The notes beneath the pieces were generated by a model, which saw only the letters and a list, made by a program, of their open reading frames with translations, made no database searches and had not been told where the DNA came from. Shown in pieces: positions 1 through 21,326 of a stretch of 35,891 nt of DNA (position 1 is its first letter; each line of letters begins with the position of its first letter). Position numbers and translations under genes: made by a program. The DNA is from Bacteroidota bacterium (GTDB lineage: Bacteria > Bacteroidota > Bacteroidia > UKL13-3), in assembly GCA_947456185.1 (NCBI GenBank), contig CANGPW010000022.1:1-35891 (forward strand), written 5' to 3'.

Positions 1-1852
1 GAATGTTACATTTAATGATACTAGTTCAACTACTGAAAATTACATAATTTTACGTAAAAAAAACGGAACAATTACTGAAATACCAACTGATGGTATTACT
101 TATCAAAAAGGCGATTATATAGGTGCTGCACAAGTGGCTTATATAGGCAAAGTTGGAACATTTAAACCCACATATATTTTGGCAAATAACAATTATTCAT
201 TTGCCGTCTTTTCATTTAACGGACCAGCTTCTTACGAAAATTATTTAACAAGTAATTCAAATACAGCTTCTGTTCAATCATTGGCAGGTAATCCTGGAAC
301 TTATTACAGCACCATTGATCCATCATCCAATAGTTTTTTAACTAATTTGAGTGCTAAAATAAATGTTCACGATACGATTTTTTATGGTAATTATACTGCA
401 ACTTTAATCAATAATTTTTTAACAAGGGATACAGCTTCTGGTAAAAAAGTGGTAAATTGTGTTTATACTGGTATTCCTTATATTTACAACGAACCTTTTG
501 TTTGGAATGTAAGTGGTGGAACTGGAATTTTAACCAGAGAACACACACGTGCACAAAGTACCATGCCAAGTAAAATATCTGGGGCTAATCCAAGTTGGCC
601 AAATGCTGGTTCCACAACCAAAGAATTACCAGAATATAATGACCAACATAATTTATTCCCTGCACATCAAACACAGGCCAATGCAACTCGTTCTAATAAT
701 CCTTTTGCAGAATGTGTTACGATTACTTCTACTTCGACTTCTGGTTTTGGGAAATTAGGAAAAGATGCAAATGGCAATACTGTTTATGAACCAAAAGATA
801 CCCAAAAAGGTGATTTAGCAAGGGCATTGTTTTATATGTCGGTTTGTTATAATGGTGCAGCTGGAAATGTTTGGACATTACCTGCTGATCAAGGTTTAGC
901 AATTTTAATGAAATGGCACCAACAAGATCCACCTAGTGACGAAGAAATTGCTCGTCATGAATACATAGCTTCAATTCAAAAAAACCGCAATCCATTTATT
1001 GATAATCCAAGTTGGGCTAATTTGATTGATTTTAAAACAATGACTTTAATTACTGGTAAAATTTTAACTGTAAATGCACCTAACGGGGGAGAAAATTTAG
1101 TAGCTGGAAAAACAACTAATATTACTTGGTTGGCTTCCGGAATTACTGGTAATGTAAAATTAGAATATACTACCAATGGAACCGATTTTATTTTTATTGA
1201 TTCAGTAAATGTAAGTCCTGCAACTTATGCTTGGACATTACCTTCATTTGCTACAACTACTGCAAAGATTAGAATTACAACATCTGATAATTCAACCACT
1301 GATTTAAGTAATGCAAATTTCACAATCAATATTCCAACTTTAAAATTGTTAACGCCAGTTGCTTCTGATAATTGGTTCCCTGGTGATTTGGAAAATATTA
1401 CTTGGCAAAGTGCTTTTGTCGATTCGGTATATATTGAAATAAAAGATAGTTCAAAAGTACTTTTAACTACAAAAGAAAAAGCCAGTTTGGGTACCATTTC
1501 AATAATAGCTCCTTGGGCATTTACTTCAAAAGCTAAGGTATTTATTTCAGAAATAAATGGCGTTTTAAAAGATAGCAGCGTTGAGTTTGGAATACATCAT
1601 GAAGTTGGAGTAAACGAAGTTTCAAATGCTAATTTCAATATTTATCCAAACCCAAGTAATGGAATTGTTTACTTTACCACTGATTTAATTTTAAATCATG
1701 CTTCATACGAAATAGTTGATGTAACCGGTAAATTAATTATCAAAGATGAATTGAGCAAAACCAATTCAATAGCCATTCAAAACAAAGGAATTTATGTGCT
1801 AAAAGCAATGGTTGATGGTAAATCAATCATTAGAAAAATAGTAGTGGAATAA
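1..1852 (+). CDS. Secreted endonuclease I family nuclease with T9SS sorting domain (5' end outside window)
   Basis: The frame is open from base 2, so the gene starts before the window and the GTG at 134 is internal. In order, the visible protein has: a fibronectin-III-like segment (about 1-270); an endonuclease I domain (about 520-1030) with the REHTRAQS motif, HNLFPAHQTQANATRSNNPF, then KGDLARALFYMSVCY and NRNPFIDNPSWA; an adhesin-like module beginning NAPNGGENLVAGKTTNITW and a second, weaker copy; and a C-terminal domain starting FNIYPNPSNG (about 1630-1852) typical of T9SS type A sorting signals. From the family, it should be a metal-dependent non-specific DNase/RNase exported across the outer membrane and anchored or released there, probably for nutrient or extracellular DNA turnover. 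The REHTR..STMP variant differs slightly from the usual REHSxxxSWMP form. It ends in a strong terminator at 1873. Confidence 0.88.
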   Translation, partial: NVTFNDTSSTTENYIILRKKNGTITEIPTDGITYQKGDYIGAAQVAYIGKVGTFKPTYILANNNYSFAVFSFNGPASYENYLTSNSNTASVQSLAGNPGTYYSTIDPSSNSFLTNLSAKINVHDTIFYGNYTATLINNFLTRDTASGKKVVNCVYTGIPYIYNEPFVWNVSGGTGILTREHTRAQSTMPSKISGANPSWPNAGSTTKELPEYNDQHNLFPAHQTQANATRSNNPFAECVTITSTSTSGFGKLGKDANGNTVYEPKDTQKGDLARALFYMSVCYNGAAGNVWTLPADQGLAILMKWHQQDPPSDEEIARHEYIASIQKNRNPFIDNPSWANLIDFKTMTLITGKILTVNAPNGGENLVAGKTTNITWLASGITGNVKLEYTTNGTDFIFIDSVNVSPATYAWTLPSFATTTAKIRITTSDNSTTDLSNANFTINIPTLKLLTPVASDNWFPGDLENITWQSAFVDSVYIEIKDSSKVLLTTKEKASLGTISIIAPWAFTSKAKVFISEINGVLKDSSVEFGIHHEVGVNEVSNANFNIYPNPSNGIVYFTTDLILNHASYEIVDVTGKLIIKDELSKTNSIAIQNKGIYVLKAMVDGKSIIRKIVVE

Positions 1853-1872
1853 ATTAAAATTCTTATAAACCT

Positions 1873-1909
1873 AAACAGCCATTACAATTGCTTGTAATGG
1901 CTGTTTTTT
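1873..1909 (+). terminator. Rho-independent terminator after the endonuclease gene
   Basis: A perfect 15-bp stem (AACAGCCATTACAA plus one flanking A-T pair) closes a TTGC loop and runs into a T tract. It lies 20 bases after the stop codon at 1852. Confidence 0.9.
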
Positions 1910-1987
1910 ATGTTATAAACTGTATGCATTTACCTCATTATGCATATTATTTTTTGATGGCTAATTATGAATATAAATGCATAAAAT

Positions 1988-2019
1988 AGCCACGATTAAA
2001 TAATTATCTAATCATGGCT
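1988..2019 (-). terminator. Probable terminator of the minus-strand secreted protein gene
   Basis: AGCCACGATTA (1988-1998) pairs with TAATCATGGCT (2009-2019), with one G-T pair. Read on the minus strand, the hairpin lies 18 bases beyond the stop at 2038 and is followed by ATTTTATG, a weak U tract. Confidence 0.55.
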
Positions 2020-2037
2020 TTCATTTAAAAATAGAAA

Positions 2038-2907
2038 TTATCTGTTATTTTTTAAAGCAATTTTCTTGATACTATTTAACGCTTCTAAATCTTTATTATT
2101 TAATTTACACTTATCAGGAGTGGCAGTTTCATAATACATTAATTCACTATTTTGAGCGCTAATTACCAATTTATTGCAATATTTTTCATCTTTTACCCAA
2201 AGGTAATAAGCCACAGCATTATCTTGATCGGCCAAAGCTTTATAAATTAAATCTCTATCAACTTCTGCCACTTCGCCATCAAATATATCCGCAGCATCTT
2301 TTTTGCCTTTTAATTCTAACATTTTATCTTCTACCAATAGTTTTTTATCCAATAATTGGCTTTTATCAGAAGGGTAATTACTCATCATTTTCGATGCAGT
2401 TATATCGGCATCCTTAGCAGCTTTACTTGCATATTCAAAATAATTATTCATCAATTGAACACCACGTTGTAATTCAAATTCCCAATCACTTGTATCAATA
2501 TTATTGCTACAAAATGCTTGAGCTAAAATATCTTCAGGCATTGATTTACGTTTGAATTTATTTAACATCACCAATCCGTTAAAATCTTCTTCGCAACTTC
2601 CTAATTTTGCTTTGTTTTTACTTCCTTTCGATTTACTAAAACTTAAGAAAACTACTTCTTGTGCTTTTTCTTGTTTTTTGTATTTTAACAATTCGTTGTC
2701 AAAAGCTACTTCAAAGCTACTAAACTTCCAATTTCTAATCATAGCAAGCTCTATAGCAGCATTGTAAGCACTATCATAAAATAATACTACAATGACTTTT
2801 TTCTCTTTAAAGGCTTCAATTTCTGATTTTTTTTTATAAAATCCGAACTGTGCTGAAGCACTAAAACTAATTAATGCTAACAAACAAATGGTAAATATTT
2901 TTTTCAT
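2038..2907 (-). CDS. Secreted protein of unknown function
   Basis: I do not recognise the family of this 289-residue protein. It begins with a clear Sec signal peptide (MKKIFTICLLALISFSASAQ, likely cleaved after the SASA stretch). The mature part is rich in Lys, Asp and Glu, has no membrane segment and no lipobox, and contains four Cys spread over the chain. The region around residues 35-100 (VIVVLFYDSAYNAAIE..., then VVFLSFSKSKG) looks like an alpha/beta fold, and the rest looks mainly helical. There is no T9SS tail, so it is probably periplasmic. It is divergent from the PNGase F-like gene at 2996, with an 88-base shared promoter region, and convergent with the endonuclease. Confidence 0.75.
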   Translation of the reverse strand: MKKIFTICLLALISFSASAQFGFYKKKSEIEAFKEKKVIVVLFYDSAYNAAIELAMIRNWKFSSFEVAFDNELLKYKKQEKAQEVVFLSFSKSKGSKNKAKLGSCEEDFNGLVMLNKFKRKSMPEDILAQAFCSNNIDTSDWEFELQRGVQLMNNYFEYASKAAKDADITASKMMSNYPSDKSQLLDKKLLVEDKMLELKGKKDAADIFDGEVAEVDRDLIYKALADQDNAVAYYLWVKDEKYCNKLVISAQNSELMYYETATPDKCKLNNKDLEALNSIKKIALKNNR

Positions 2908-17951: not shown

Positions 17952-18698
17952 GTGAAAAATAAATTTTTTATACAGCTATTATTAGCCTTGAGTTTTAGTG
18001 GTTGTAATCCAAAACTAACACTTACCAATACTCAAACACAAAACATAAAAATAAATAAAGATTCGCTTCAACTTCATGATGCGATAACTTTTAACACCAT
18101 TGCTCCATATAAAATTAAGTTAGATAGTTTGATGAATGAGGTGTTATGTTATAATAATCAAGACTTAAAAAAAGATTTGCCAGAAGGCACCTTAGGAAAT
18201 TTTGTGTGTGATGAATTGATGAGTTTTGCTAAAAATAATTATTCAAAACCCATTGATTTTTGTTTGTATAATAATGGTGGTTTGCGTGTTGGAAGCATTG
18301 CCAAAGGCAACATAACAGTTGGAAAAATATACGAACTTACACCATTCGACAACACAATAGTTGTGGTAGAACTTGGAGGAAATGATTGTAAACGTTTGTT
18401 CGATTTAATTGCTCAAAACAATGGAACACCTTGTTCTAAAGAGTTTAGAATGACTATTGAAAATAATTTAGCAACTAATATAATTATTAATAGTGTACCT
18501 TTTGATAGTACAAAAACATATCGAATTTTAACCAACAATTACGTAGCTAGTGGTGGCGATAAAACTGAACCCATGAAAAAAGCAATTAATGTTACCTCTT
18601 TTAACATAATGGTTAGAGATGCTTTAATAAATCAGTTGAAAACAAGAGGAAATAATTCACAACCAATAAATATAATATTAGATGGAAGAATTAAATAA
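17952..18698 (+). CDS. Lipoprotein with 5'-nucleotidase C-terminal domain
   Basis: The protein starts at GTG 17952; this places Lys-Asn-Lys right after the start and a hydrophobic stretch ending in the lipobox LSFSGC at residue 18, so the start is well supported. After a linker, residues from about 45 on form the substrate-specificity domain of UshA-type nucleotidases: LGNFVCDELM, YNNGGLRVGSI, GKIYELTPFDN, YRILTNNYVASGGD. This domain binds the nucleobase but has no metal site, so alone it should not hydrolyse anything. The catalytic half is the next gene, which overlaps by 17 bases. This order (C-half first) is the reverse of the order in the single-chain enzyme. The lipid anchor would keep the protein on a membrane facing the periplasm. 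Confidence 0.88.
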   Translation: MKNKFFIQLLLALSFSGCNPKLTLTNTQTQNIKINKDSLQLHDAITFNTIAPYKIKLDSLMNEVLCYNNQDLKKDLPEGTLGNFVCDELMSFAKNNYSKPIDFCLYNNGGLRVGSIAKGNITVGKIYELTPFDNTIVVVELGGNDCKRLFDLIAQNNGTPCSKEFRMTIENNLATNIIINSVPFDSTKTYRILTNNYVASGGDKTEPMKKAINVTSFNIMVRDALINQLKTRGNNSQPINIILDGRIK

Positions 18699-19632
18699 AC
18701 AAAACAGACGAAAATTTATAAAAGAATCTGGTGTTTTATTGGCAGGTGTTGCTTTAGTTGCTTCTCCCATTAGTCATTTAGCGGCCCAAAACAAGGAAAT
18801 AAAGCTTTGCATATTGCATACCAATGATTGGCATAGCAGAATAGAGCCATTTGATAAAACAGATAAGAATAATGCTGGAATGGGTGGCGCAGAATTTAGA
18901 GCTGCTTTAATTAATAAATACAGAAAAGAAAACGAGCATGTATTATTATTAGATGCAGGCGATATTTTTCAAGGAACACCTTATTTTAATTTTTATGGTG
19001 GTGAACTAGAATATAAACTGATGAGTCAAATGGGATACGATTGTGTTACACTTGGTAACCATGATTTTGATAATGGAATAGAGGGTTTATATAAGCAAAT
19101 GCCAAATGCCACATTTGATTTTGTAAACTGTAATTACGATTTTACAGATACTTTAATTGAACATGAAATTTCACCTTTTAAAATATATAAAAAAGGTGCT
19201 TTAAAAATTGGAGTTACTGGAATTGGAATTGAATTAAATGGTTTAGTACCTGAAAATTTATATGGAAAAATAAAATACAATGATCCATTAGAAAAACTGA
19301 ATAAAGTAGCAACATATTTAAAAGAAGAGAAAAAATGTGATTTAGTAATTTGTCTATCGCATTTGGGGCATAGTTATAAAAATGAAAAAATAAATGACTT
19401 GAGTTTAGCTCCTCAAACTAAAAATGTAGATTTAATTTTAGGTGGACATACACATACCTTTTTAAAAGAACCAATTATTGTAAAAAATTCAGTAGGAAAG
19501 AATATAATTATAAATCAAGTTGGTTGGGCAGGATTAGTATTAGGAAAAATAGAATTTATTTTTAATACACATTTAACCAACGATTTTATTCACACTTTCG
19601 AAAATGTTGATATTGATGGTACAAGCATATAA
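18682..19632 (+). CDS. Tat-exported metallophosphatase, catalytic half of a split 5'-nucleotidase
   Basis: The 316-residue protein opens with a twin-arginine signal (NRRKFIKESGVLLAGVALVA), so it is exported folded, probably with its metals. The calcineurin-like phosphoesterase domain has all metal motifs: HTNDWHSRI, DAGDIFQGTP, GNHDFDNG, CLSHLGHS and GGHTHTF. It ends where UshA-type enzymes would continue into the C-terminal domain. That domain is encoded just upstream with a 17-base overlap, which implies translational coupling and a two-chain 5'-nucleotidase/2',3'-cyclic phosphodiesterase. Substrates are inferred from the family. No terminator hairpin was seen after the stop. Confidence 0.9.
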   Translation: MEELNKQNRRKFIKESGVLLAGVALVASPISHLAAQNKEIKLCILHTNDWHSRIEPFDKTDKNNAGMGGAEFRAALINKYRKENEHVLLLDAGDIFQGTPYFNFYGGELEYKLMSQMGYDCVTLGNHDFDNGIEGLYKQMPNATFDFVNCNYDFTDTLIEHEISPFKIYKKGALKIGVTGIGIELNGLVPENLYGKIKYNDPLEKLNKVATYLKEEKKCDLVICLSHLGHSYKNEKINDLSLAPQTKNVDLILGGHTHTFLKEPIIVKNSVGKNIIINQVGWAGLVLGKIEFIFNTHLTNDFIHTFENVDIDGTSI

Positions 19633-19889: not shown

Positions 19890-21326
19890 ATGAGTGAACA
19901 GTCGTGTGAAACAGTGTGGAATAATTGCTTGAAACTAATTCAAGATAATGTGAACCCTCAAAGCTTTAGAACTTGGTTTGAACCTATTAAATCGATAAAA
20001 TTAGAGAATAAAATATTAACGATTCAAGTACCAAGTCAATTTTTTTATGAATGGTTAGAGGAACATTATGTAAGTTTATTGAAAAAAACTTTAAAGCAAA
20101 TATTAGGAACTGGTAGCCGATTAGAATATAATATTATTGTAGAAAATGGAACATCAAATACTAATCCTTATATAGTAAACATACCAGGAAGCCAAAGTTC
20201 AAAAATGGATTCTCAGGAGGCAGGTTTGGGTTCAGCATTAAACACCAATATAAAAAATCCGTTTGTAATTCCGGGTTTGAAAAAAATTAATATTGATGCA
20301 AATTTAAATCACAACTTAAACTTTGATAACTATATAGAAGGAGACAACAACCGCTTAGCAAGAGCAGCTGGAATGGCTGTTGCTTCTAAACCAGGTGGCA
20401 CCGCATTTAATCCTTTAATGTTTTTTGGTGAAACTGGAATGGGTAAAACTCATTTGGTTCATGCCATTGGAAACATGGTGAAGCAAAACAATAAAAACAA
20501 AATTGTATTATATGTGCCAATTGAAAAGTTTACCAATCAATTTGTTGAAGCAATTAGAAATAATTCAAACCAAGACTTTTTAAATTACTACCAACAAGTT
20601 GATGTTTTAATAGTAGATGATGTACAGTTTTTAGAAAACAAACAAAAAACACAAGAAATATTCTTTACTATATTTAATCATTTACACCAACAAGGTAAAC
20701 AATTAATATTAACAAGCGACAGAGCTCCTAAAGATTTAAAAGGAATGGATGAACGTTTGTTAAGTCGTTTTAAATGGGGCCTTTCAGCTGATATTCAAAC
20801 TCCGGATTTTGAAACACGTTTGGCTATTTTGGAACATATGATGTATAACGATGGAATTAATTTACACAGAGATGTAGTAGAATACGTAGCTCATAATATC
20901 AATACAAATGTTCGTGAATTACAAGGTGCATTAGTAAGTTTATTGGCTCAATCGTCATTAAATAAAAAAGAAGTAACGCTTGATTTAGCCAAACAAATTT
21001 TGAAAAACTTTGTAAAAAATAATACACGCGAAATTTCTATTGAATTTATTCAAAAATTAGTTTGCGATTATTTTACCATTCCTGTTGAACAAGTAAAATC
21101 AAAAACTCGTAAACGCGAAATAGTTCAGGCTCGTCAAATAAGCATGTATTATGCAAAGGATTTAACCAAATCATCTTTGAAAACTATTGGAATGCATTTT
21201 GGAGGTAGAGATCACTCAACTGTAATTCATGCTTGTCAAACAGTGAATGATTTGATGGAAACAGATAAAAAATTCCGTGCCGATATTGAAGAAATTGGCA
21301 AACGTATCAAAATGAACTTGGTTTAA
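19890..21326 (+). CDS. dnaA: Chromosomal replication initiator protein DnaA
   Basis: The 478-residue protein has all four DnaA domains. Domain I (1 to about 75) contains WNNCLKLIQDNVNPQSFRTWF. Domain II is a short linker. Domain III is an AAA+ ATPase with Walker A GETGMGKTH at 180-188, Walker B VDDVQFL at 242-248 and the LLSRFKWG sensor region. Domain IV has the DNA-binding signature GGRDHSTVIHACQTV at about 438-452. It binds DnaA boxes and opens the origin. The gene is not followed by dnaN or recF as in Firmicutes, which is normal for this phylum. It ends in a strong terminator. The ATG is preceded by AGGAAAATATT, a weak purine-rich site. Confidence 0.97.
   Translation: MSEQSCETVWNNCLKLIQDNVNPQSFRTWFEPIKSIKLENKILTIQVPSQFFYEWLEEHYVSLLKKTLKQILGTGSRLEYNIIVENGTSNTNPYIVNIPGSQSSKMDSQEAGLGSALNTNIKNPFVIPGLKKINIDANLNHNLNFDNYIEGDNNRLARAAGMAVASKPGGTAFNPLMFFGETGMGKTHLVHAIGNMVKQNNKNKIVLYVPIEKFTNQFVEAIRNNSNQDFLNYYQQVDVLIVDDVQFLENKQKTQEIFFTIFNHLHQQGKQLILTSDRAPKDLKGMDERLLSRFKWGLSADIQTPDFETRLAILEHMMYNDGINLHRDVVEYVAHNINTNVRELQGALVSLLAQSSLNKKEVTLDLAKQILKNFVKNNTREISIEFIQKLVCDYFTIPVEQVKSKTRKREIVQARQISMYYAKDLTKSSLKTIGMHFGGRDHSTVIHACQTVNDLMETDKKFRADIEEIGKRIKMNLV

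Follow-up and report, generated by a model that had tools for sequence, protein, structure and literature searches.

A putative two-chain 5'-nucleotidase in Bacteroidota

The window, a 35,891-nucleotide stretch of DNA from a member of the Bacteroidota (contig CANGPW010000022.1), carries two overlapping genes on its + strand that probably encode a UshA-type 5'-nucleotidase made as two chains. The first open reading frame (ORF; 17952-18698, GTG start, 248 amino acids) encodes a lipoprotein with the substrate domain, and the second (18682-19632, ATG start, 316 amino acids) encodes the catalytic chain. Judged from their sequences and from fold models, the two chains very probably form one enzyme, whose complex and activity are putative. 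They are complementary single-domain proteins that keep all catalytic and most substrate-site residues. The core of a sequence-only reading of this DNA, namely a split UshA-type enzyme that assembles outside the cytoplasm and is lipid-anchored, is supported by coevolution of the chains, co-occurrence of their genes, two fold predictions and the existence of fused relatives.

The sole Pfam match of the 248-residue chain was PF02872 (5_nucleotid_C; E 1.2e-21, 77.9 bits, cut-off 23.6), and this is the one PF02872 domain in the source genome. The 316-residue chain matched PF00149 (Metallophos; E 3.2e-19, 70.6 bits, cut-off 21.5), and the Pfam profile search found no substrate domain in it. Its best-scoring NCBIfam model was UshA (E 5.2e-34, residues 31-259). 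The sequence-only reading had placed the domains of a 5'-nucleotidase on two genes overlapping by 17 bases (18682-18698), with which the ORFs and the Pfam matches agree exactly.

A survey of Bacteroidota for the gene pair and for single-chain versions, as that reading had proposed, returned 269 unique pairs from loci fetched by similarity, and fused single chains were also found. The pairs were found via similarity to the window proteins and Pfam, so window-like forms are over-represented. The lipoprotein gene came first in 269/269 pairs, with overlapping genes in 172, gaps of 0-100 bases in 79 and wider spacing in 18. A broken single-chain ushA, arising from a frameshift or an assembly error, has a negligible probability: nothing beyond the split itself speaks for it, reversed order with separate export signals cannot come from a frameshift, and the same arrangement in every pair across the phylum refutes assembly error, frameshift and local oddity alike.

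Conserved residues and the domain boundary

The nine dimetal and catalytic positions of the catalytic chain (D49, H51, D94, N126, H127, D130, H227, H256 and H258; 18826-19455) were identical in 70/70 relatives. In the lipoprotein, R112, F132, N134, Y197 and D203 (18285-18560, first to last codon) align with the UshA substrate-site residues R410, F429, N431, F498 and D504 and were conserved in 70, 69, 70, 62 and 62 of the 70 relatives, respectively. Both base-stacking positions of the PF02872 domain are thus aromatic (F132 for UshA F429, Y197 for UshA F498).

Alignment with single-chain relatives indicated that the inter-domain helix belongs to the lipoprotein and that the catalytic chain stops before it. 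The helix starts at P52-Y53-K54 (18105-18113), where P52 was invariant in 22/22 lipoproteins. In a profile alignment with E. coli UshA, on which the UshA residue numbers were counted by hand, this motif corresponds to P351-F352-Q353, adjoining what we take to be the UshA hinge at 355-356.

Coevolution between the chains

A mean-field coupling analysis was performed on 266 pairs, with an effective number of sequences (Neff) of 206, after 3/269 had been dropped for gaps. Lipoprotein K54 and catalytic E55 formed the strongest inter-chain coupling, ranking second among all couplings at 17.4 standard deviations (SD), and lipoprotein I50 and catalytic I54 ranked 13th at 8.9 SD. The two couplings link positions i and i+4 in one chain to adjacent residues in the other, and I54-E55 (18841-18846) is the predicted docking site for I50 and K54. 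The combinations at K54/E55 in the 266 pairs were K-E in 105, R-D in 86, K-D in 44 and R-E in 8. A tree-based test, with the tree built without these two columns, favoured dependent evolution of K/R and E/D (twice the log-likelihood difference, 51.9; p 1.4e-10). Additionally, the observed correlation of 0.605 was reached by 0/1000 independent simulations, in which 23/266 rows with residues other than K/R or D/E were left out. Swapping partners removed the K54-E55 signal in 3/3 runs, although the swaps were chained and may mix beyond the 15 nearest neighbours, and half samples kept rank 2 in 2/2.

Inter-chain pairs made up 6 of the top 50 couplings, though they are half of all possible pairs, and the lipoprotein arm (residues 44-58) was weakly enriched, with 4 of the top 20 (p 0.035). 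Inter-chain mutual information reached 0.315, against a largest shuffled value of 0.20, and K54-E55 came ninth. Because its top pairs look phylogenetic, mutual information was set aside as main evidence in favour of the coupling analysis and the tree-based test. Of the alignments, A4 was discarded because MAFFT had misaligned it; in A3, which was used, many unpaired lipoprotein rows had their last 6-13 residues displaced to the far end.

Co-occurrence of the two genes

Of 396 Bacteroidia genomes, 220 contained both split-type chains, 1 the catalytic chain only, 0 the lipoprotein only and 175 neither, which gives totals of 221 for the split-type catalytic chain and 220 for the split-type lipoprotein. 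For the catalytic chain, 264 genomes matched and 43 were excluded as single-chain type by E-value and by eye; for the lipoprotein, 247 matched and 27 were excluded in the same way. Counted among the 220 are at least one fused form (G587) and four genomes whose lipoprotein match was weak (G475, G502, G525 and G656). Two catalytic genes located directly upstream of dnaA (L166 and L291) had no adjacent lipoprotein gene, and both genomes (2/2) carry a full-length lipoprotein gene elsewhere. Gene adjacency alone was ruled out as the source of the co-occurrence, as unlinked genes were both kept in these 2/2 genomes.

In a separate case, genome G660, which has no split-type catalytic chain, contained a 70-residue remnant-like lipoprotein match (C6:88645-88854) and another weak match inside a longer frame, a possible recent loss of the pair.

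Joint fold prediction and structure comparison

For joint folding with AlphaFold2, fused constructs were taken from relatives with both genes in one frame, the DNA being read through the stop codon. The L145 fusion (538 residues; alignment of 136 rows, 15 of them paired) gave a mean predicted local distance difference test score (pLDDT) of 90.6 and a predicted template modelling score (pTM) of 0.87, with the linker at 237-261 below 50. The L231 fusion, from outside the class Bacteroidia (92 rows), gave a pLDDT of 90.4 and a pTM of 0.88, again with a disordered linker. Because pTM is bounded by the larger half, a value near 0.5 would be expected if the halves were unplaced relative to each other, an argument from the definition of the score rather than from a control. 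The co-folding check proposed by the sequence-only reading gave confident joint models for linker-tethered fusions, which concern the relative placement of the halves rather than distances at the predicted interface.

The structure comparison was largely confined to the catalytic domain (model residues 263-538). The catalytic half of the L145 model matched 2z1a of Thermus with Z 34.0 and a root-mean-square deviation (rmsd) of 2.0 over 259 aligned residues.

According to passages of PMC8475336, the catalytic domain of UshA on its own hydrolyses ATP, ADP and p-nitrophenyl phosphate but not AMP, and UshA requires a 96-degree rotation. In passages of PMC7922932, the isolated CpdB catalytic domain lost most 3'-AMP activity and kept activity on 2',3'-cyclic nucleotides, and the CpdB C domain alone was inactive. 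Such retained activities, together with genome G542, the one exception with a catalytic chain and no lipoprotein match, would suit a catalytic chain that is a complete periplasmic phosphatase beside a lipoprotein that is encoded in the same operon but is a separate nucleoside-binding protein for uptake or sensing, with no catalytic part. We regard that arrangement as quite unlikely, given the K54-E55 coupling, the joint folds, the fused relatives described below, the 220/221 co-occurrence and the location of the inter-domain helix in the lipoprotein. By analogy with the isolated UshA and CpdB domains, the lipoprotein of a two-chain enzyme should instead make a nucleotidase out of a phosphohydrolase of lower specificity.

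Export signals

The window lipoprotein has Cys18 after the hydrophobic stretch MKNKFFIQLLLALSFSGC, in the lipobox FSGC18. The signal peptide (residues 1-17) and the lipidation Cys18 (codon 18003-18005) occupy 17952-18005, and a Cys followed a hydrophobic stretch in 264/266 full-length lipoproteins of the survey (3/269 pairs were left out as truncated). The tether and putative docking arm follow (residues 19-51, 18006-18104), including I50 (18099-18101), and the distance from Cys to the PY motif was 30-36 residues in 250/264 lipoproteins.

The N-terminus of the window catalytic chain, MEELNKQNRRKFIKE, is a twin-arginine translocation (Tat) signal with the motif NRRKFIK, in which the twin arginine is R9-R10 (18706-18711). 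The motif [RK][RK]x[FWLMYV] was present in 266/269 catalytic chains, with RR in 236, and TatC is encoded in the source genome. The Tat model TIGR01409 matched 9/22 relatives at E 0.05 (best, 1e-4).

Acidic residues at +3 to +7 after Cys numbered zero in 219/264 lipoproteins, and two or more occurred in only 4. An acidic signature at this place is the export signal of surface-exported Bacteroidota lipoproteins; surface display was rejected, as 260/264 lipoproteins lack it, and the enzyme is therefore more likely to face the periplasm.

In one lipoprotein-first pair (L342 of genome G778; 1468-2319, reverse strand), the catalytic chain starts with the lipobox-like VAGLVAC, and both chains may be lipid-anchored.

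Several of the results weigh against a two-chain UshA-type enzyme with these two export routes. About two inter-chain couplings are clear of noise, and the co-occurrence counts are uncorrected for kinship. In the fold predictions, a linker tethers the chains, and AlphaFold2 knows UshA. UshA R375 and R379 have no clear counterpart in the lipoprotein, where the region is about five residues shorter. By TIGR01409 alone, the Tat call is borderline for the window protein (14.9 bits, cut-off 16.7), and it is the family motif that carries the call. Moreover, the seven examined members of one lineage (L080, L211 and L321-L325; 7/7) are lipoprotein-first and have catalytic chains with signals like those of the general secretory (Sec) route and no clear Tat motif, TatC being present in 6/7 tested genomes of this lineage. 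Some substrate chains (L163 and L322) have no lipobox Cys, so that the pair has been retained and the anchor lost in some lineages. The two export routes that the sequence-only reading had claimed are thus the common state, with the Tat motif and TatC as given above, but not an invariant one.

Fused relatives and the history of the split

In genome G587, a 517-residue lipoprotein carries the catalytic domain followed by the substrate domain, both close to the split family. Among 119 genomes of its order, fused forms total five (L326 and L334-L337), and three split pairs have the catalytic gene in first position (L338, L339 and L341); 14 further genomes were lipoprotein-first by coordinates. 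It was in this search that exceptions to the lipoprotein-first order surfaced. The halves of the fused relatives, which are single chains in the UshA order, matched the split-family profiles at 242-278 and 129-214 bits, and the Tat motif was not seen in those of their N-termini that were inspected.

At L338 (1441-3105), two in-frame genes are separated by one stop codon, and the second has its own new lipoprotein signal. Judged by its sequence, this locus is a living intermediate between the fused and the split enzyme.

The pair of basic residue 54 and acidic residue 55 was found in 4/5 fusions (as R-D), 3/3 same-order pairs (as K-E), 3/7 Sec-type forms and 0/25 outgroup single chains. What was a contact inside a single chain has apparently turned into one between separate chains.

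In a catalytic-domain tree rooted with 25 single-chain relatives, the fused and same-order forms lay outside the lipoprotein-first clade, within which the seven Sec-type forms were separate from 70 Tat-type forms. Catalytic-domain trees separated split from single-chain forms with a support of 0.995 for 94 splits and of 0.967 for 86 family members; the input of the latter was 70 of the 94 selected survey pairs, L211, ten newer pair or fusion loci, L340 and L342. The tree of the substrate (C) domain gave no clean separation, with 7 divergent single chains on the split side. The concatenated tree showed the fused and same-order forms as a sister group and not a basal grade, with a low support of 0.30-0.37 at the base of the family. 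For both reasons, the order of the historical steps is taken mostly from the catalytic-domain tree: a fused chain would first have been divided into two genes without a change of order, the order would then have been reversed, and the catalytic chain would finally have gained a Tat signal. The reversed order emphasized by the sequence-only reading is real, in the window as in all surveyed pairs. It is, however, a derived feature, as same-order split pairs exist, and not part of how the enzyme works.

Proposed mechanism and comparison with known enzymes

The lipoprotein would supply the nucleoside-binding domain and the inter-domain helix, and the second protein the dimetal active site. We propose that the lipoprotein is exported by Sec and then lipidated, and that cytoplasmic folding of the catalytic chain, presumably together with its metals, precedes its exit by Tat. 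Once both are in the periplasm, the lipoprotein arm and the start of the helix (about residues 36-58) would dock near catalytic residues 54-55, replacing a covalent linker. The lipoprotein domain could then bind the nucleotide base, swing about the inter-chain joint and bring the phosphate to the metal site, while the lipid would hold the enzyme on a membrane, facing the periplasm. There is about an even chance that a hinge-bending 5'-nucleotidase working across a protein joint operates in much of the Bacteroidota, with substrate choice, membrane position and catalysis as separately exported, exchangeable modules; on this reading, living relatives still display the stages that led to it.

E. 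coli UshA (5'-nucleotidase/UDP-sugar hydrolase; 1ush, 1hp1 and 1ho5) has the same two domains and the same catalytic and base-binding residues, and the modelled catalytic half superposes on it with Z 31-32 and an rmsd of 2.3-2.5 over about 261 aligned residues. UshA is a single chain with the catalytic domain first, whereas here there are two chains, a lipid-anchored one with the substrate domain, encoded first, and a catalytic one that bears a Tat signal; the linker helix lies in the substrate chain, and the R375/R379 region is shorter. By sequence and by fold (Z about 33-34), the catalytic chain is closest among solved structures to human CD73, snake-venom 5'-nucleotidases and Thermus 2z1a, all of them single chains. 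The lipid anchor of CD73 is at its C end, whereas here the substrate chain is anchored through its N end. SoxB thiosulfohydrolase has a related catalytic domain (Z about 30; 83.6 bits, cut-off 550) but is a single chain with a different substrate. SoxB is exported by Tat. Tat export would fit a catalytic chain that acquires its metals in the cytoplasm.

The same two-domain plan is found in CpdB, in its separately expressed domains (PMC7922932) and in UshA/CpdB chimeras (PMC8071527); there the split is artificial, whereas here it is natural. Passages of PMC7922932 contained no trans reconstitution.

Neither window chain reached an NCBIfam equivalog cut-off. For the curated UshA equivalog NF007109, the two chains scored 117.9 and 64.2 bits against a cut-off of 600, which a half protein cannot reach. 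From its sequence, the pair would work like UshA, yet it fails two features of that family, the single chain and the equivalog score. The missing equivalog assignment leaves room for one enzyme whose main substrate is a UDP-sugar, a CDP-alcohol, NAD, a cyclic nucleotide or another phosphoester. Models of UshA, NadN, CpdB-type enzymes and SoxB all match the window catalytic chain, the NadN C-domain model also matches 15/22 lipoproteins, R375 and R379 are not clearly kept, and UshA itself is broad, according to passages of PMC8475336. Even so, UshA scores best among the catalytic models and the base-site residues R112, F132, N134 and Y197 are kept, and we consider another main substrate somewhat unlikely.

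A survey of ushA (PMC10454023) set a minimum query coverage of 71% and recorded Flavobacteriia, Cytophagia, Chitinophagia, Saprospiria and Sphingobacteriia as negative for ushA-like genes. The pair is present in members of groups scored negative there, and a split gene can hardly reach 71% coverage. No description of the gene pair was found in the open-licence literature, most subscription papers lying outside the search. If the two-chain enzyme is real, much of a phylum uses a 5'-nucleotidase that gene surveys have overlooked, and the domain-rotation mechanism could be tested in trans through one predicted salt bridge, K54-E55. Moreover, the family would provide a natural sequence of stages in which domains split, genes were reordered and the export route changed.

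Distribution and gene neighbourhood

PF02872 was found in 206/392 genomes of the phylum, in many of them as a stand-alone ORF of about 250-300 amino acids. The pair was obtained at once from 77/80 named genome loci, which include Flavobacterium, Chryseobacterium, Pontibacter, Hymenobacter, Sphingobacterium, Dyadobacter and Saprospiraceae. In the remaining 3/80, L311 had a longer lipoprotein ORF that exceeded the length filter and was initially missed, L256 had its lipoprotein match at a contig start, and L291 had none nearby. The pair also occurs in members of the phylum outside the class Bacteroidia. The split is an old trait of the family. In seven genomes (G397, G405, G415, G420, G423, G424 and G442), a single-chain relative of 568-611 amino acids coexists with the split pair.

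In the window, the pair is preceded by genes for a MOSC protein and an HI0933-like flavoprotein and followed by genes for DnaA and a CorA-like transporter. A third operon partner was rejected: no neighbour was common to all pairs, and the commonest, present in 28/67 named pairs, lies on the opposite strand. We know of no functional link between the pair and dnaA. The pair often lies directly upstream of dnaA, as in the window (dnaA at 19890-21326) and at L166 and L291; a DnaA-like ORF was downstream in 26/67 named pairs, or in 10/67 by a stricter motif search. This position is probably inherited synteny.
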